Virus record (IMG/VR): IMGVR_UViG_3300009149_000298
Span: 1 to 23,046 of that record
Length of the DNA: 23,046 nt
From: a virus
Strand: one strand, 5' to 3'
The notes beneath the pieces were generated by a model that saw nothing but the letters and a program-made list of their open reading frames with translations, made no database searches and had not been told where the DNA came from. Below are positions 4,461-19,667 of the stretch, piece after piece. Each line of letters begins with the position of its first letter. Position 1 is the stretch's first letter. The position numbers and the translations under genes were made by a program.

Positions 4461-6191
4461 ATGTTAAGTCAGTCATATATAAATGAGTATAACAACAATA
4501 ATAAGTCTGGTAAAATGTCGTCAGATAAATATGTATCTTCTAACTTCACAGAAGATTATAATCTAATATTAAAATATTGTATAGACAATAACATAGACTT
4601 ACCCTTTAAGCAAAAGGTATATCATACAATAAACAATATACCTAATATAGTAGTGTGTGAAAATGAAAAATGTAAAAATCCAGTTAAATTTAAAAATTCA
4701 ACAATAGGTTATATAAAATATTGTTGTAAAAAATGTGTCGGTTCTGACCCAAATATTAAAAAGAAAAAAGTAGAAACTAATCTTAGTAAATTTGGAGTTC
4801 AACACGCTTCTTTAAATAAAGAAGTTAAAGATAAGATCAAAAAAATATATGATGATAGGACAGATCAATATAAGAATGAAATATTAAATAAAAGAATAAA
4901 AACAGTTAATGATAAATATGCAGTAAGTAATATATCCCAATTAGAGGAAACTCAGAAAAAGAGAATTGAATCATTTAAAGAAAATATTGATAAGTGGAAG
5001 ATTAACTATAAAAAAACGTCATTAGAAAGATATGGAGTTAGTCACCCATGGGAAAAGGATGATATTCATAATAAAACAATAGTATCTTCATTAGAAAAGA
5101 GAATCGAATTATATACTAAAAAAATATTGGAGAAACTACCACCAAATTATAATTTAATAGAAGTTATAAATAGAATGGATGTTAATAATAGACTGACCTC
5201 CAAGGTTAGATGTCATAAATGTGAAAATATATTTGAGATAAATAATAGTTTATTATATGATCGAACTATTAGAAATATAACTGAAATATGTACTCTATGT
5301 AACCCAATAAGTAAGGGTACTAGTGGTTTAGAAATCCAATTATTAAGTTTCATATCAAATAACTATAGCGGCGAAATAATTAATAATATCAGGTCTTTAA
5401 TATCACCATATGAAATAGACATTTATCTACCAGATTTGAAATTAGCTTTTGAATTTAATGGTTTATATTGGCATTCTGAGATTAACAAGGATAAGAATTA
5501 CCATTATAAAAAAACTAAAATGTGTTCAGATATTGATATACAATTAATTCATATTTGGGAAGATGATTGGGTTCATAAAGGAGATATAATTAAATCTATG
5601 ATACTCAATAAGTTGAATAAAAGTTTTAATAGAATATACGCTAGAAAGTGTGAAGTGAAAGAAGTTACCGATAATAGATTAGTTAGGGAGTTCTTAAATA
5701 ATAATCATATACAAGGATTTGTGGGTAGTAATATTAAGTTAGGTCTATACTACGAAGATGAATTAGTTTCACTTATGACATTCGGTAAGTTAAGACAATC
5801 TATGGGATATTCACCAAATGAAGTAGATTTTGAACTAATTAGATTCTGTAATAAATTAAATACAAATGTGATTGGCGGAGCATCTAAATTATTCAAATAC
5901 TTTATCAACCAGTATAAATTTAGATCAATAATATCTTATTCAGATAATTCATATTCAAATGGTGGGTTATATGAAACCCTTGGATTTAATTTAAAAGAAG
6001 GGATAATGAAATTGAATTACTACTGGGTTATAGACGATAAAAGAAACCATAGATATAATTTTAGAAAAAGTAATTTATTGAAAATGGGATATGATCCTAA
6101 TAAATCCGAAAAAGAAATAATGTACGAAGATGTTGGTGGATATAGAATATGGGGGAGTGGTAATAAGAAGTGGGAATTTGGGTTGGAATAA
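4461..6191 (+). CDS. Free-standing homing-endonuclease-like protein (Vsr/PD-(D/E)xK type nuclease core)
   Basis: Probably a selfish endonuclease gene inserted between the sheath and tube genes. Near residues 60-95 there is a four-cysteine, zinc-binding-like region (CENEKCKNP ... YCCKKC). Next come three spaced copies of a DNA-binding-type repeat with the core K/RYGV or KFGV (SKFGVQHAS, DKYAVSNIS, ERYGVSHPW), as found in modular phage homing endonucleases. A CxxC pair follows twice (CHKCENIF, CTLCNP). The nuclease core contains EIDIYLPDLKLAFEFNG, then YWHSE and IHIWEDDW, resembling Vsr/very-short-patch-repair-like folds, with D and E as likely metal ligands. The last ~180 residues form a separate domain that may be acetyltransferase-like (GGASKLFKYF ... 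YSDNSYSNGGLYETLGF). Its own upstream element and the preceding terminator support independent expression. The family class is confident; the target site is unknown. Confidence 0.75.
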   Translation: MLSQSYINEYNNNNKSGKMSSDKYVSSNFTEDYNLILKYCIDNNIDLPFKQKVYHTINNIPNIVVCENEKCKNPVKFKNSTIGYIKYCCKKCVGSDPNIKKKKVETNLSKFGVQHASLNKEVKDKIKKIYDDRTDQYKNEILNKRIKTVNDKYAVSNISQLEETQKKRIESFKENIDKWKINYKKTSLERYGVSHPWEKDDIHNKTIVSSLEKRIELYTKKILEKLPPNYNLIEVINRMDVNNRLTSKVRCHKCENIFEINNSLLYDRTIRNITEICTLCNPISKGTSGLEIQLLSFISNNYSGEIINNIRSLISPYEIDIYLPDLKLAFEFNGLYWHSEINKDKNYHYKKTKMCSDIDIQLIHIWEDDWVHKGDIIKSMILNKLNKSFNRIYARKCEVKEVTDNRLVREFLNNNHIQGFVGSNIKLGLYYEDELVSLMTFGKLRQSMGYSPNEVDFELIRFCNKLNTNVIGGASKLFKYFINQYKFRSIISYSDNSYSNGGLYETLGFNLKEGIMKLNYYWVIDDKRNHRYNFRKSNLLKMGYDPNKSEKEIMYEDVGGYRIWGSGNKKWEFGLE

Positions 6192-10003: not shown

Positions 10004-11011
10004 ATGGGAGGATTATCACTTAAAAATTTACCAGAGGACAAAAAGACTAGAAGATATCATAAAGATGAATACTTTAATCTTTCGGAAGAATTACTCCCGA
10101 AAATTAAAGAAATATTCAACACTGATATTAGTCTAGTAATGTCTTATCATAACAAAGAAACTTTTGGTGATATGGATATTCTTATTCTAAATAAAGGATA
10201 TGATAATATTCCCAAACTAATTCAAGAGTTAGAACCATCAGAAATTAACGGAAATGGTAACGTTTATTCATTTGATTATAAAAATCTACAAATTGACTTA
10301 ATCATGACCGATCCAGAAAACTGGGAAGCATCTAACATCTTCTTTCAATGGGGAGATTTAGGTAACTTAATGGGTAAGTTATTTAATTCATATGGTAATA
10401 TGGATAACTTTATCCTAAAGTATGGATTCGATGGTATGAAAATTAAAATGATTTATAACGGATATAGTAAATACTTATCTTTAACCAAAGACAATAAAAA
10501 AGCTTTTGAATTTTTAGGTCTAGACTTCGAAAGACATAAGGAAGGATTTAATGATCAATTTGAGATGTTTGATTATATCATTGGATCAAAATACTTCTCA
10601 TATGATATCTTCCAATGGGAGAATTTAACTTCTGTTAATAAAAATAGAAATAAAAGAAGACCAGTTTTCATTGAATTTCTCAAATATATTGAGAGTCATA
10701 AAAATATAATTACTTATGACGAGAAAAATGAAATATATTTAGAAAATTTAAGTAGATTTTTTAATATTAATATCAAAGAAGAATACCAAATGTTAGTTGA
10801 TAAGGTTGAATATGATAAATCTATCAGTGATAAATTTGGTGGTAAATATATTATGGAATCATTTAATTTAGAATCTGGTAAGGAATTGGGTAAAATGATG
10901 TTAAATTTTAAAATGGAAATTGAATCTAATAATGGAGATTATAATGATTTTATCAATAATCACTCCCGTGAAGAACTAAAATCCATGTTTAAGAGATTGA
11001 ATAATTTATAA
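10004..11011 (+). CDS. Nucleotidyltransferase of the DNA polymerase X/beta type
   Basis: A 335-aa protein whose first third is a polymerase-X-type palm. The stretch SYHNKETFGDMDILIL (residues 47-62) follows the family signature GSYRRGKETxGDIDIL, with D56 and D58 as metal ligands. The third carboxylate would be D98 in LQIDLI. WEASNIFFQWGDLGN then takes the place of the family segment around the FTGS loop. Unlike true Pol X enzymes, no N-terminal helix-hairpin-helix 8-kDa domain is present. The C-terminal ~170 residues are not recognised. It could be a repair polymerase or a terminal/RNA nucleotidyltransferase; the sequence does not suggest a CCA-adding enzyme. The rnpA gene follows after 13 bases, so both probably share the promoter near 9971. 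Confidence 0.72.
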   Translation: MGGLSLKNLPEDKKTRRYHKDEYFNLSEELLPKIKEIFNTDISLVMSYHNKETFGDMDILILNKGYDNIPKLIQELEPSEINGNGNVYSFDYKNLQIDLIMTDPENWEASNIFFQWGDLGNLMGKLFNSYGNMDNFILKYGFDGMKIKMIYNGYSKYLSLTKDNKKAFEFLGLDFERHKEGFNDQFEMFDYIIGSKYFSYDIFQWENLTSVNKNRNKRRPVFIEFLKYIESHKNIITYDEKNEIYLENLSRFFNINIKEEYQMLVDKVEYDKSISDKFGGKYIMESFNLESGKELGKMMLNFKMEIESNNGDYNDFINNHSREELKSMFKRLNNL

Positions 11012-11024
11012 TAAATAGAAACGA

Positions 11025-11327
11025 ATGAAAAATACGATAAAATCTATAAAAGAAATAGACTCTGTTTTCAGAGGTAAGACTGTTGTTGGCAAATCCGTTT
11101 TGATTAAATATTCAGATAGTGATTCATTAAAATATTTAGTTACAGCTCCAATTAAAACATGGAAGAGAGCGGTTGATAGAAATAGAATCAAGAGACTTAT
11201 GAGGGAATCCATAAGAGGAATAGAGATACCTAAGAATATAGCATTTGTTTATATCGATAAGGAAATCCGATCCTTGGTGGAAATAAAAAAGGATATCGAA
11301 ATTATTTTAAAAAAAATTAAGTATTAA
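11025..11327 (+). CDS. rnpA: Ribonuclease P protein component (phage-borne RnpA)
   Basis: RnpA is the protein cofactor of RNase P, which binds the catalytic RNA and removes 5' leaders from pre-tRNAs. The 100-aa protein carries the hallmark RNR motif: KRAVDRNRIKRLMRESIR at residues 47-64, with R52, N53, R54, K56, R57 and R60 as expected RNA contacts. The N-terminal part (IKEIDSVFRGKTVVGKSVLI) matches the first helix and strand of the family. The KRAVDRNRIKRL form is close to Bacteroidota RnpA, which suggests capture from a host. It is slightly short for the family (about 110-130 aa). Expressed behind the nucleotidyltransferase gene and closed by an 18-bp palindromic terminator. No RNase P RNA gene is seen in the window, so it presumably pairs with host or distant phage RNA. 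Confidence 0.88.
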   Translation: MKNTIKSIKEIDSVFRGKTVVGKSVLIKYSDSDSLKYLVTAPIKTWKRAVDRNRIKRLMRESIRGIEIPKNIAFVYIDKEIRSLVEIKKDIEIILKKIKY

Positions 11328-11334
11328 TATAATA

Positions 11335-11372
11335 AATAAACCCCTTTATAATAGATTATAAAGGGGTTTATT
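11335..11372 (+). terminator. Bidirectional terminator after rnpA (18-bp perfect palindrome)
   Basis: The arms 11335-11352 and 11355-11372 are perfectly complementary around a two-base centre. The core is CCCCTTTATAA / TTATAAAGGGG, with TTTATT after it. It separates rnpA from the convergent minus-strand gene at 11378. Confidence 0.88.
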
Positions 11373-15171: not shown

Positions 15172-15720
15172 ATGATAAAAGAGAAAAACACCAAATGGTA
15201 TGCTATCAGAACAGTAGCTGGAAAAGAAAAAGTAGCTAAAGAAAATGTCGAAAGAGAAATAAACGACAACAATATCGATAAATGGGTCGGTCAAGTAGTC
15301 CTACCAACTGAGAAATTATACAAACTAAGAAATGGTAAGAAATTTTCCCGAGATAAATTAGTTTTCCCTGGTTATATATTTATGGAATTAGAATTAATAG
15401 GTGAAGTAGAGAGAATAATCAAAAATACCAAGAACGTTATTGGATTCACTGGAGATAGAAACAATAAACCAATCGCTTTAAAACAATCCGAGATCGAGAG
15501 AATAATTGGTAATATGGAAAAAGTGGAAAGTGGAGACACAGAAATCCCATTTATAGCTGGAGAGCAGATTACAGTTATCGATGGACCATTCAATAACTTT
15601 ACAGGTGAAGTTGTTAGCATAGATCATGATAAGAAAACATTGGAAGTTATAGTTAAAATATTCGGTAGAGAAACCCCTTTAAAACTATCTTATTTACAAG
15701 TAGATAAATATAGAGATTAG
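15172..15720 (+). CDS. nusG: NusG-like transcription elongation factor (phage-borne)
   Basis: A 182-aa full-length NusG (E. coli NusG 181 aa, known). The N-terminal NGN domain starts with KWYAIRTVAGKEKVAKENVE and contains the RNA-polymerase-contacting region around VLPTEKLYKLRNGKK and VFPGYIFMELEL. The KOW domain is clear at the C-terminus (GEQITVIDGPFNNFTGEVV), and the ending VKIFGRETPLKLSYLQV is very like Bacteroidota NusG. NusG binds RNA polymerase and controls pausing, termination and coupling. A phage copy could prevent termination in phage operons or compete with host NusG. It ends the 14383-15720 unit, seven bases after the preceding gene, and is followed by a strong terminator. Confidence 0.9.
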   Translation: MIKEKNTKWYAIRTVAGKEKVAKENVEREINDNNIDKWVGQVVLPTEKLYKLRNGKKFSRDKLVFPGYIFMELELIGEVERIIKNTKNVIGFTGDRNNKPIALKQSEIERIIGNMEKVESGDTEIPFIAGEQITVIDGPFNNFTGEVVSIDHDKKTLEVIVKIFGRETPLKLSYLQVDKYRD

Positions 15721-15873: not shown

Positions 15874-17793
15874 ATGAAATTATTTGATAAAATTAAAAAA
15901 AATCACACCGACTTGGAAGATGAAATGTCTATCCAAGATTATCTAGAGTTGTGTAAAAAAGATCCTAAAGCATATGCTTCACCAGCTGAAAGAATGTTAG
16001 AAGCTATTGGTGATCCACAATTCGTTGATACCAAAACAGATGATAGATTAAACAGAATCTTCTTTGGTAAAACAATAAAAATGTACCCAGCTTTCTCAGA
16101 ATTCTATGGTATGGAGGAAACTATAGATCAAATCGTTAGTTTCTTCAAACACGCCGCACAAGGGTTAGAGGAAAAGAAACAAGTATTATACCTATTAGGT
16201 CCAGTTGGTGGTGGTAAATCTTCATTGGCTGAGAGGATCAAATCTTTGATGGAACAAAGTCATGTTTATGTCTTGAAATGTGGTGGTGAATTATCACCAG
16301 TATTCGAATCACCATTAACTCTATTTTCAGAATATAAATCGGAATTAGAAGAAGAGTATGGTATCGCTAAAAGATACATTCCAGCTTGTATGAGTCCATG
16401 GGCGATTAAGAGATTAGATGAATTAGGTGGTGATATAAATAAGTTCAAGGTAGTTAAAGTAAAACTGAATATACAAAAACAAATTGGTATCTCTAAAACT
16501 GAACCTGGTGATGAAAATAACCAAGATATATCAACTCTAGTTGGTAAGGTTGATATTAGTAAATTAGCTGAATATTCACAGGATGACGCGGATGCGTATT
16601 CTTATAGTGGATCTCTTTGTAAAGCTAATCAAGGTATAATGGAGTTTGTGGAGATGTTTAAAGCTCCTATAAAAGTATTACACCCATTACTAACCGCTAC
16701 TCAAGAGGGCAATTATAATGGAACTGAATCCATATCATCAGTTCCATTTAATGGAATTATACTAGCCCATTCAAATGAATCAGAATGGGAAACATTCTCG
16801 AATGATAATAAGAATGAAGCTTTCCTTGATCGTATTTATGTAGTAAGAGTTCCTTATTCATTAAGAATTAATGAAGAAGTTAGTATATATGATAAACTTC
16901 TTAAAAGTTCTTCTTTATCGGAAGCTCCATGTGCTCCACAAACATTAGAGATGTTATCTAAGTTTAGCATTCTAACAAGAATTGCTCCAACAGAACATTC
17001 TAACAATTTTTCTAAAATGAGAATATATAATGGTGAAGATCTTAAAGACGTAGATCCCAAAGCTAAGTCAATACAAGAATATAAAGATATAGCTGGAGTA
17101 ACCGAAGGAATGTCGGGAATATCTACTAGATTCGCTTTCAAAGTCTTATCTAAGGTATTTAACTATGATTCTAGAGAGGTTGCTGCTAATCCAGTACATC
17201 TTCTATATGTTTTAGAAAAAGAGATTATTAAACAACAGTTTAATAAAGAGAAAGAGGAAGAGTATTTGAATATAATTAAAGATCTATCTACTAAATACGC
17301 TGAATTTATCTCAGAAGAAATTCAAAAAGCATACGTTGATTCCTATGATGAATATGGTCAAAATATTTTTGATAGATATGTTCTTTACGCTGACCATTGG
17401 ATTCAAGATTTGGATTATAGAGATCCAGACACTGGAGAGCAGTTTGATAAGAAGATCTTAGACGAAGAATTATCAAAAATTGAGAAACCTGCTGGGATAG
17501 CTAATCCCAAAGATTTCAGAAATGATATAGTCCAATTCTATTTAAGATCTAAATCACATGATGGAGTAGCACCAAAATGGAATGAATATGCTAAAATGAG
17601 ATCGGTTATAGAAAAGAGATTATTCTCTAAAACCGAGGAACTATTACCTATAATTTCCTTCTCATCTAAATCTAAGGAAGATGAAGAGAAACATAAGAAA
17701 TTTGTTGATAGAATGTCCGAAAGGGGATATACTGAATTACAAATAAGACTACTAGTAGAATGGTATCTTAGAGTGAGAAAAAGAGAAGTATAA
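15874..17793 (+). CDS. prkA: PrkA-family serine protein kinase / AAA+ protein (YeaG-like)
   Basis: Full-length PrkA (639 aa; E. coli YeaG 644 aa, known). The N-terminal AAA+ domain is clear: RIFFGKTIKMYPAF, then EFYGMEETIDQIVSFFKHAA, and the Walker A loop GPVGGGKSS at residues 109-117 with K115. SPVFESPLTLF follows. Later family segments include ILAHSNESEWETF and YVVRVPYSLRINEEV. The C-terminal third corresponds to the PrkA kinase-like domain and ends in a basic helix (LLVEWYLRVRKREV). In bacteria prkA forms a stress/stationary-phase system with yeaH (DUF444) and often spoVR. Here the DUF444 gene lies downstream, but spoVR is not in the window. Role in phage infection unknown. A terminator follows. 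Confidence 0.92.
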   Translation: MKLFDKIKKNHTDLEDEMSIQDYLELCKKDPKAYASPAERMLEAIGDPQFVDTKTDDRLNRIFFGKTIKMYPAFSEFYGMEETIDQIVSFFKHAAQGLEEKKQVLYLLGPVGGGKSSLAERIKSLMEQSHVYVLKCGGELSPVFESPLTLFSEYKSELEEEYGIAKRYIPACMSPWAIKRLDELGGDINKFKVVKVKLNIQKQIGISKTEPGDENNQDISTLVGKVDISKLAEYSQDDADAYSYSGSLCKANQGIMEFVEMFKAPIKVLHPLLTATQEGNYNGTESISSVPFNGIILAHSNESEWETFSNDNKNEAFLDRIYVVRVPYSLRINEEVSIYDKLLKSSSLSEAPCAPQTLEMLSKFSILTRIAPTEHSNNFSKMRIYNGEDLKDVDPKAKSIQEYKDIAGVTEGMSGISTRFAFKVLSKVFNYDSREVAANPVHLLYVLEKEIIKQQFNKEKEEEYLNIIKDLSTKYAEFISEEIQKAYVDSYDEYGQNIFDRYVLYADHWIQDLDYRDPDTGEQFDKKILDEELSKIEKPAGIANPKDFRNDIVQFYLRSKSHDGVAPKWNEYAKMRSVIEKRLFSKTEELLPIISFSSKSKEDEEKHKKFVDRMSERGYTELQIRLLVEWYLRVRKREV

Positions 17794-18350: not shown

Positions 18351-18407
18351 TTTATAAACAGATGTGAATATTTTAGATATAAAGATTAGAAAAATGTGTC
18401 TAAATAT

Positions 18408-19667
18408 ATGAGTAATAGAAGAATTGTAGATAGAAGAACTAGTCCATCAAAAAAGTCTTTACCAAATAAACAAAGATTTGTTAAAAGAGTTGAGGATCAG
18501 ATAAAAAAAGCTATACCTGATGTCGTTGATTCAACTGGGATAAAAGATTTTGTTAAAGGTAATGGTAAGGTTAAGATTCCTATAAAAGGAATCAAAGAAC
18601 CACAATTCCAATACGATAATAAAACTGGTGATAAGAAATATATCCACCCAGGTAACAAGGAATTCACAGAGGGTGATAAAATTAAAAAGCCTCAAGATGG
18701 TCAGGGAGAGGGAAGTGGTAAAAAGGGTAGTAAAGATGATAGTCCAAGTGAAGACGAATTCACCATTTCCATATCGAAAGAAGAGTTCATGGATTACTTC
18801 TTTAAAGATCTCGAATTACCAGATATGATAAAAAGGGAACTTCAAAATATGACCGAGTTTAAATATAAAAGGGCTGGGTATAGCTCCGAGGGAATTCCAT
18901 CTAGATTAAATGTAATAAACTCATATAAACAAAGTTTGGCTCGTAGATTAACTATGAAGGCTCTATATGATAGGAAGATTAAAGAACTTGAAGAAGAACT
19001 ACTAAGAATAGTTGATGAATCAGAAAGATCTATTATCTTAGAAAAGATAGAGAAATATAAAAACCTAGCATTGTTAGTTCCGTATATGAATGATGTTGAT
19101 TTGAGATATAATAATTTTGAAGCTAAACCAATTCCTACTGTAAGTGCTGTTATGTTCTGTATTATGGATGTGTCGGGATCAATGGGTGTAAATGAAAAGG
19201 ATATAGCTAAGAGGTTTTTTATATTATTATATTTGTTTCTGAATAAGAATTATGAAAACATTGATATAGTCTATATTAGACATACTACAACCTCCAAAGA
19301 GGTAGATGAGAAAGAATTCTTTGAAAGTAGGGAGAGTGGTGGAACTATGGTATCACCATCATTAAAACTAATGGATGATATATTAAACGAGAGATATTCA
19401 AAAGGTTGGAATATATACGCTTGTCAAATATCCGATGGAGATGTTTGGGATAAACAAGACGCTGATGATTGTTATAAGATACTATCAAATACTATTCTTA
19501 GTAAGTTACAGTATATGATATATGTTGAAGTTCTTAGAGATGGTAGGGGAGATCTATTTAAAAATTATACCTCTTTAAGTAAAGAGAAAAAGAATTTTGT
19601 AGTTTCTCAAATAAGTGATGTTAAGAACATTTGGACAGTATTTGTAGATTTATTCAAAGTCACTTAA
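18408..19667 (+). CDS. YeaH/YhbH-family VWA protein (DUF444), partner of PrkA
   Basis: A 419-aa DUF444 protein read from the ATG at 18408, giving MSNRRIVDRRTSPSKKSLPN as expected for the family; a GTG at 18396 would add four residues. The N-terminus is a basic region with the family's RQRF-like KQRFVKRVEDQIKKA. A disordered Gly/Lys/Ser/Asp linker follows (about residues 85-125). The von Willebrand A domain then carries the metal site DVSGSMG (about residue 253), IRHTTTSKEVDEKEFF, ESGGTMVSPSLKLM and the late ISDGDVWDKQDADDC. These match E. coli YeaH (427 aa, known) segment by segment. In bacteria it works with PrkA; the partner gene lies just upstream. TTTTAGATATAAA (18371-18383) before the start may be a promoter element. 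Confidence 0.9.
   Translation: MSNRRIVDRRTSPSKKSLPNKQRFVKRVEDQIKKAIPDVVDSTGIKDFVKGNGKVKIPIKGIKEPQFQYDNKTGDKKYIHPGNKEFTEGDKIKKPQDGQGEGSGKKGSKDDSPSEDEFTISISKEEFMDYFFKDLELPDMIKRELQNMTEFKYKRAGYSSEGIPSRLNVINSYKQSLARRLTMKALYDRKIKELEEELLRIVDESERSIILEKIEKYKNLALLVPYMNDVDLRYNNFEAKPIPTVSAVMFCIMDVSGSMGVNEKDIAKRFFILLYLFLNKNYENIDIVYIRHTTTSKEVDEKEFFESRESGGTMVSPSLKLMDDILNERYSKGWNIYACQISDGDVWDKQDADDCYKILSNTILSKLQYMIYVEVLRDGRGDLFKNYTSLSKEKKNFVVSQISDVKNIWTVFVDLFKVT

Follow-up and report, generated by a model that had tools for sequence, protein, structure and literature searches.

The window, by which the whole stretch of DNA analysed is meant, is a virus record of 23,046 bases, a fragment in which genes for a tail sheath, a tail tube and other phage proteins are present, together with genes for a phage NusG, an RNA ligase, a 5'-3' exonuclease, DHFR and a PrkA/YeaH-like pair. 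A homologue of rnpA, the gene for the protein subunit of RNase P, is flanked on either side by phage genes, including those for sheath and tube. The window is phage DNA, and its phage is probably a huge phage of Bacteroidota. The features at the locus are as follows:

10004..11011, plus strand: polymerase-beta-type nucleotidyltransferase gene upstream of rnpA (phrog_24943, E 2.8e-24).
11025..11327, plus strand: rnpA, RNase P protein subunit homologue with an ATG start and 100 amino acids, a phage-type short form (PF00825 at E 9.4e-11, predicted fold, nine phage homologues).
11145..11210, plus strand: RNR region inside rnpA, residues 41-62, APIKTWKRAVDRNRIKRLMRES.
11335..11372, no strand assigned: strong terminator-like hairpin between convergent genes (17-pair stem, -20.8 kcal/mol, z -4.65).

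Lying on the same strand, the nucleotidyltransferase gene stops 13 bases short of rnpA, and the two are probably co-transcribed. The scan scored the hairpin on the minus strand; acting on the rnpA strand as well, it would probably terminate the rnpA transcript. A functional unit of nucleotidyltransferase and RnpA was rejected because relatives of the former occur in jumbo phages that lack rnpA; such relatives are found in LR756504, LR756501 and isolated jumbo phages, and the gene is common in jumbo phages, those without rnpA included. No close relative of the window nucleotidyltransferase was found among the viral contigs searched. Neither a tRNA gene, nor any Rfam match, nor an RNase P RNA was found in the 23,046 bases of the window.

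Almost all cells have the ribozyme RNase P, for which a host housekeeping gene supplies the protein subunit. The open reading frame at the locus contains KRAVDRNRIKRLMRE, and its sole Pfam match is PF00825 (Ribonuclease_P), at 42.2 bits and E 9.4e-11 against a curated cut-off of 22.3 bits; a search of the whole record led to the same locus (E 3.7e-12). Its best NCBIfam match is the equivalog rnpA (TIGR00188), where a score of 31.9 bits lies below a cut-off of 38.35 that stands for assured functional equivalence and not for family membership, and no PHROG family was matched. Taken together, these three outcomes characterize the protein, at the level of profiles, as a divergent member of the RnpA family and not as an assured equivalog. 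In the RNR region, R48, A49, R52, N53, K56 and R57 are invariant among the eight phage RnpA proteins aligned.

The predicted structure agrees with this assignment. An AlphaFold2 model built on an alignment of 8 phage proteins reached a pLDDT of 80 and a pTM of 0.69, with two of the five models being poor (pLDDT 54-58), and gives the element order alpha-beta-beta-beta-alpha-beta-alpha. The best PDB matches of this model found by Foldseek are all RNase P proteins, from S. aureus, B. subtilis and T. maritima (best E 1.5e-5). In VIA-align, RNase P proteins fill ranks 1-10 with Z scores of 8.8-11.6, led by B. subtilis 1a6f (Z 11.6, 95 residues aligned, 2.6 A), and the first row that is not an RnpA has a Z of 8.2; nothing was retrieved at E 0.001 from a viral fold library. 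The model thus has the predicted fold of RnpA. The initial annotation had named the gene from its RNR signature, and that identification is borne out by the Pfam score, the predicted fold match and the motif itself, with no other family assigned by the profile searches.

Nine further phage copies were found, 36-52% identical to the window protein and all exceeding the PF00825 cut-off (40.7-53.1 bits). A tblastn search of 50,697 phage records gave convincing matches in only two genuine phage genomes, LR756502 (642 kb) and LR745206 (635 kb), in keeping with the earlier remark that phage copies are rarely noted, and two scans of IMG/VR yielded seven further copies, carried by contigs of 476, 15.7, 58, 242, 24.9, 159 and 508 kb. 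When a Flavobacteriaceae RnpA was used as query against the phage records, only apparently host-derived records were added. Records of Salmonella, Campylobacter and Acinetobacter in the phage collection were set aside, as they match bacterial RnpA and are probably host DNA. Four short faecal records labelled 'Bacteriophage sp.' (MT838814, MT836169, MT838815 and MT839959) carry a bacterial-type RnpA and are probably mislabelled host DNA as well.

The phage proteins are 93-105 residues long, as opposed to mostly 110-140 in complete RnpA of Bacteroidota, and the difference lies in a shorter C-terminal end and a shorter stretch after the RNR helix. Two copies vary in the motif itself: in L042 (6007-6306) RNY replaces RNR, and in L043 (5986-6300) the motif is the divergent KRANKRNRVKRLMRV. 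By a simple count method, dN/dS in the closest pairs is about 0.11 (L003-L004), 0.19 (L005-L007) and 0.34 (L002-L042), values that indicate purifying selection on phage rnpA. These ratios, well under 1, together with the nine homologues, rule out a chance reading frame.

The tail sheath of the window is found in the five largest carriers at 66-71% identity and, because of this, the carriers are classed by sheath sequence as huge phages of one broad clade. Within this clade rnpA behaves as an accessory gene of sporadic occurrence, with neighbours that vary between phages. It is not seen in 45 other relatives recognized by sheath or PrkA, many of which are short fragments and the longest 465 kb, nor in LR756504 (636 kb, sheath 60%), LR756501 (735 kb) and LR756500 (462 kb). 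A search for an empty site was made in the closest sheath relatives (81-82%), which are without the genes adjoining rnpA, so that insertion or loss is not visible there.

As for its origin, the best 80 bacterial matches of phage RnpA are nearly all from Bacteroidota, mostly Flavobacteriales, at 27-50% identity. The initial annotation had proposed placing the protein in a tree with Bacteroidota; in a tree of 85 proteins over only 126 columns, no phage protein falls inside any sampled bacterial family. The ten phage proteins form one side of a branch with support of 58/81 and Bacteroidota form another with 92/69, neither of them well supported, and the window protein pairs with L040 (98/89). Judging from these sequences, the gene was probably acquired once, long ago, from Bacteroidota or a related group.

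Most carriers are rich in tRNA genes. The numbers of matches are 50 in LR756502 (642 kb), 61 in LR745206 (635 kb), 59 in the L002 record (476 kb), 68 in the L043 record (508 kb) and 36 in the L042 record (159 kb); the 15.7-kb and 58-kb contigs hold 20 and 25, the 242-kb contig holds 1, and the 24.9-kb contig has none over the cut-off. In three loci, L003, L004 and L042, rnpA has tRNA genes of its own strand around it, and these loci amount to two lineages since L003 and L004 are close kin; in L042, rnpA is at ~110.75-111.06 kb of the contig, with tRNAs at 107-108.6 and 113.5-116 kb. The four largest carriers have rnpA tens of kilobases or more away from their tRNA arrays. Over half of the spacers in the five large carriers that were sampled measure at most 20 bases, with a median of 5-6 among those and often 4-7, and a CCA end is seldom encoded, so that with such short spacers the tRNAs can be released only by cutting at their 5' ends. 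Two relatives of the same sheath family that lack rnpA (636 and 735 kb) carry 45 or 66 tRNAs, and their arrays are as tight as those of the carriers; therefore, phage tRNAs can mature without an rnpA gene. Neither the number nor the spacing of tRNAs was retained as the reason for carrying rnpA, given these tRNA-rich and equally tight relatives.

No match to RF00010 or RF00011 over the cut-off was found in the window or in the nine carriers, most of which are fragments and in which a divergent RNA could be missed, while the RF00010 search detects RNase P RNA in a Bacteroides genome used as positive control. Sub-threshold matches, one of 53 bases in LR756502 (11.4 bits, E 0.06) and two in the 508-kb contig (11 and 10.3 bits), were taken as chance. 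The check advised in the initial annotation, a search for tRNA genes and RNase P RNA, thus gave tRNAs in most carriers, none in the window, and no RNase P RNA over the cut-off. Bacterial-type RnpA alone has no catalytic centre and, as no RNase P RNA was detected in the carriers, the partner RNA would be that of the host. The earlier suggestion that the protein redirects host RNase P RNA is consistent with this outcome as far as the sequences go.

The reading preferred here, and regarded as reasonably probable, is that phage RnpA attaches to the RNase P RNA of the host and assists in maturing phage pre-tRNAs. During infection, the phage protein would bind the host RNA, either replacing host RnpA or acting beside it, and the hybrid ribonucleoprotein would cut 5' leaders off phage tRNA transcripts, many of them in tightly packed arrays, perhaps at times when host RnpA is limiting. 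Proteins of the RnpA family make contact with the 5' leader of pre-tRNA, and in this way the phage version could shift preference towards phage leaders. We infer that rnpA is expressed, that its product binds host RNase P RNA and affects phage pre-tRNAs, and also that tRNAs are encoded by the phage to which the window belongs. The family assignment, the predicted fold, the conserved RNR core, purifying selection, the clade and the tRNA-rich carriers are all consistent with such a hybrid enzyme. The points against it are the tRNA-rich relatives without rnpA, the distance between rnpA and the arrays in the four largest carriers, the window fragment without tRNA and the altered motifs in L042 and L043. 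The initial proposal that the gene serves to mature phage tRNAs is accordingly supported in part, by the tRNA-rich carriers and the three loci among tRNAs, and weakened by the tRNA-rich relatives that lack the gene and by the window. A further step, according to which an RnpA lineage that arose within the huge-phage clade refits the host ribozyme during infection, with a viral subunit moving onto the cellular catalytic RNA, and changes which pre-tRNAs mature, is put forward only tentatively, being given rather less than an even chance.

Other explanations start from the same observations. The phage protein might instead displace host RnpA and slow or narrow the processing of host tRNA and other RNA, with a benefit other than tRNA maturation, and its shorter length with the RNA-binding motif retained, as well as the failure to detect a phage RNase P RNA, would suit such a competitor; nevertheless, carriers with tRNA arrays would harm themselves, rnpA is embedded among tRNA genes in three loci, and all secondary-structure elements of RnpA are retained in the predicted model, which makes this explanation unlikely. 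The location among tRNA arrays in those three loci, along with the conserved residues of the RNR region, also speaks against RNA binding or mRNA decay separate from RNase P, as proposed for S. aureus RnpA. This role, considered improbable, draws on the fold match to S. aureus RnpA, on the PDB title of 6ov1 (S. aureus RnpA), which mentions mRNA degradation activity, and on the four largest carriers, where rnpA does not adjoin tRNA loci.

A complete phage RNase P, with an RNA too divergent for the Rfam models, could be accommodated in genomes of such large size and might be hinted at by the sub-threshold match in LR756502, but that match is just 53 bases long and chance-like, the search does detect the RNA in the Bacteroides control, and the other carriers gave nothing over the cut-off, so this possibility is judged very unlikely. 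Least credible is that host DNA, present as a contaminant or as an integrated host locus, was mistaken for phage: short faecal 'Bacteriophage sp.' records bearing RnpA do resemble host pieces, yet in the window sheath, tube and other phage genes flank rnpA on both sides, homologues are present in phage genomes of 635 and 642 kb, five carriers share the window sheath, and the tree places no phage protein within any of the bacterial families sampled. The placement of the gene in phage DNA, which the initial annotation had made dependent on the absence of an integrated host locus, is upheld by the same facts.

The RnpA proteins of B. subtilis (1a6f), T. maritima (1nz0/3q1q) and S. aureus (6d1r) share with the window protein the family, the predicted fold, the order of helices and strands and the RNR region, whereas the window protein is phage-borne, shorter, under the equivalog cut-off and outside the sampled bacterial branches. 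Huge phages carry tRNAs, tRNA synthetases, IF1/IF3, S21, L7/L12 and other such genes (Al-Shayeb et al. 2020, PMC7162821); the kind of genome (460-735 kb phages) and the theme of translation takeover are the same as here, but the main text of that work names no RNase P component, and RNase P is not mentioned in a 2026 review of jumbo phages (PMC13282480). Phage-borne processing of phage tRNAs has likewise been proposed, in gut phages that infect Bacteroidota and Bacillota, for tRNA-associated theta ribozymes (PMC10879173), although these work in cis on the 3' trailer, whereas the target of RnpA would be the 5' leader, in trans. Text searches of the open literature turned up no description of a phage RnpA, and an annotation in supplementary tables or subscription papers is quite possible; this is a well-known protein family that is apparently undescribed as a phage gene.

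The recurrence of rnpA in several giant phages, most of them with dozens of tRNA genes, suggests that giant phages steer the tRNA-trimming ribozyme of the host instead of just borrowing it. If true, huge phages would govern tRNA maturation besides tRNA supply, and a phage lineage that has the protein half alone would exemplify a subunit exchange, occurring in nature, on a ribozyme of the cell. Compact and divergent, phage RnpA also offers material for working out which regions of the protein are required.

Some observations concern the other genes of the window. The RNA ligase (PF09414; 13648-14277, minus strand) is a possible tRNA-repair gene that shares the fragment with rnpA. Between sheath and tube lies a gene (4461-6191) for a 576-aa DUF7487 protein, endonuclease-like in look, which in related contigs is variable in position or absent, as with a mobile endonuclease gene. 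The full-length NusG (15172-15720) passes its NCBIfam equivalog cut-off at 158.5 bits and directly precedes PrkA in the window, while in related contigs the two are several kb apart and on opposite strands. The PrkA serine kinase (15874-17793; NCBIfam equivalog, 1095 bits) has relatives in LR756502 and LR745206 (70-71% identity) and in no fewer than 80 viral contigs (61-72%); with its YeaH/YhbH-like partner gene (18396-19667), it forms a stress-kinase pair that is a conserved module of huge phages.
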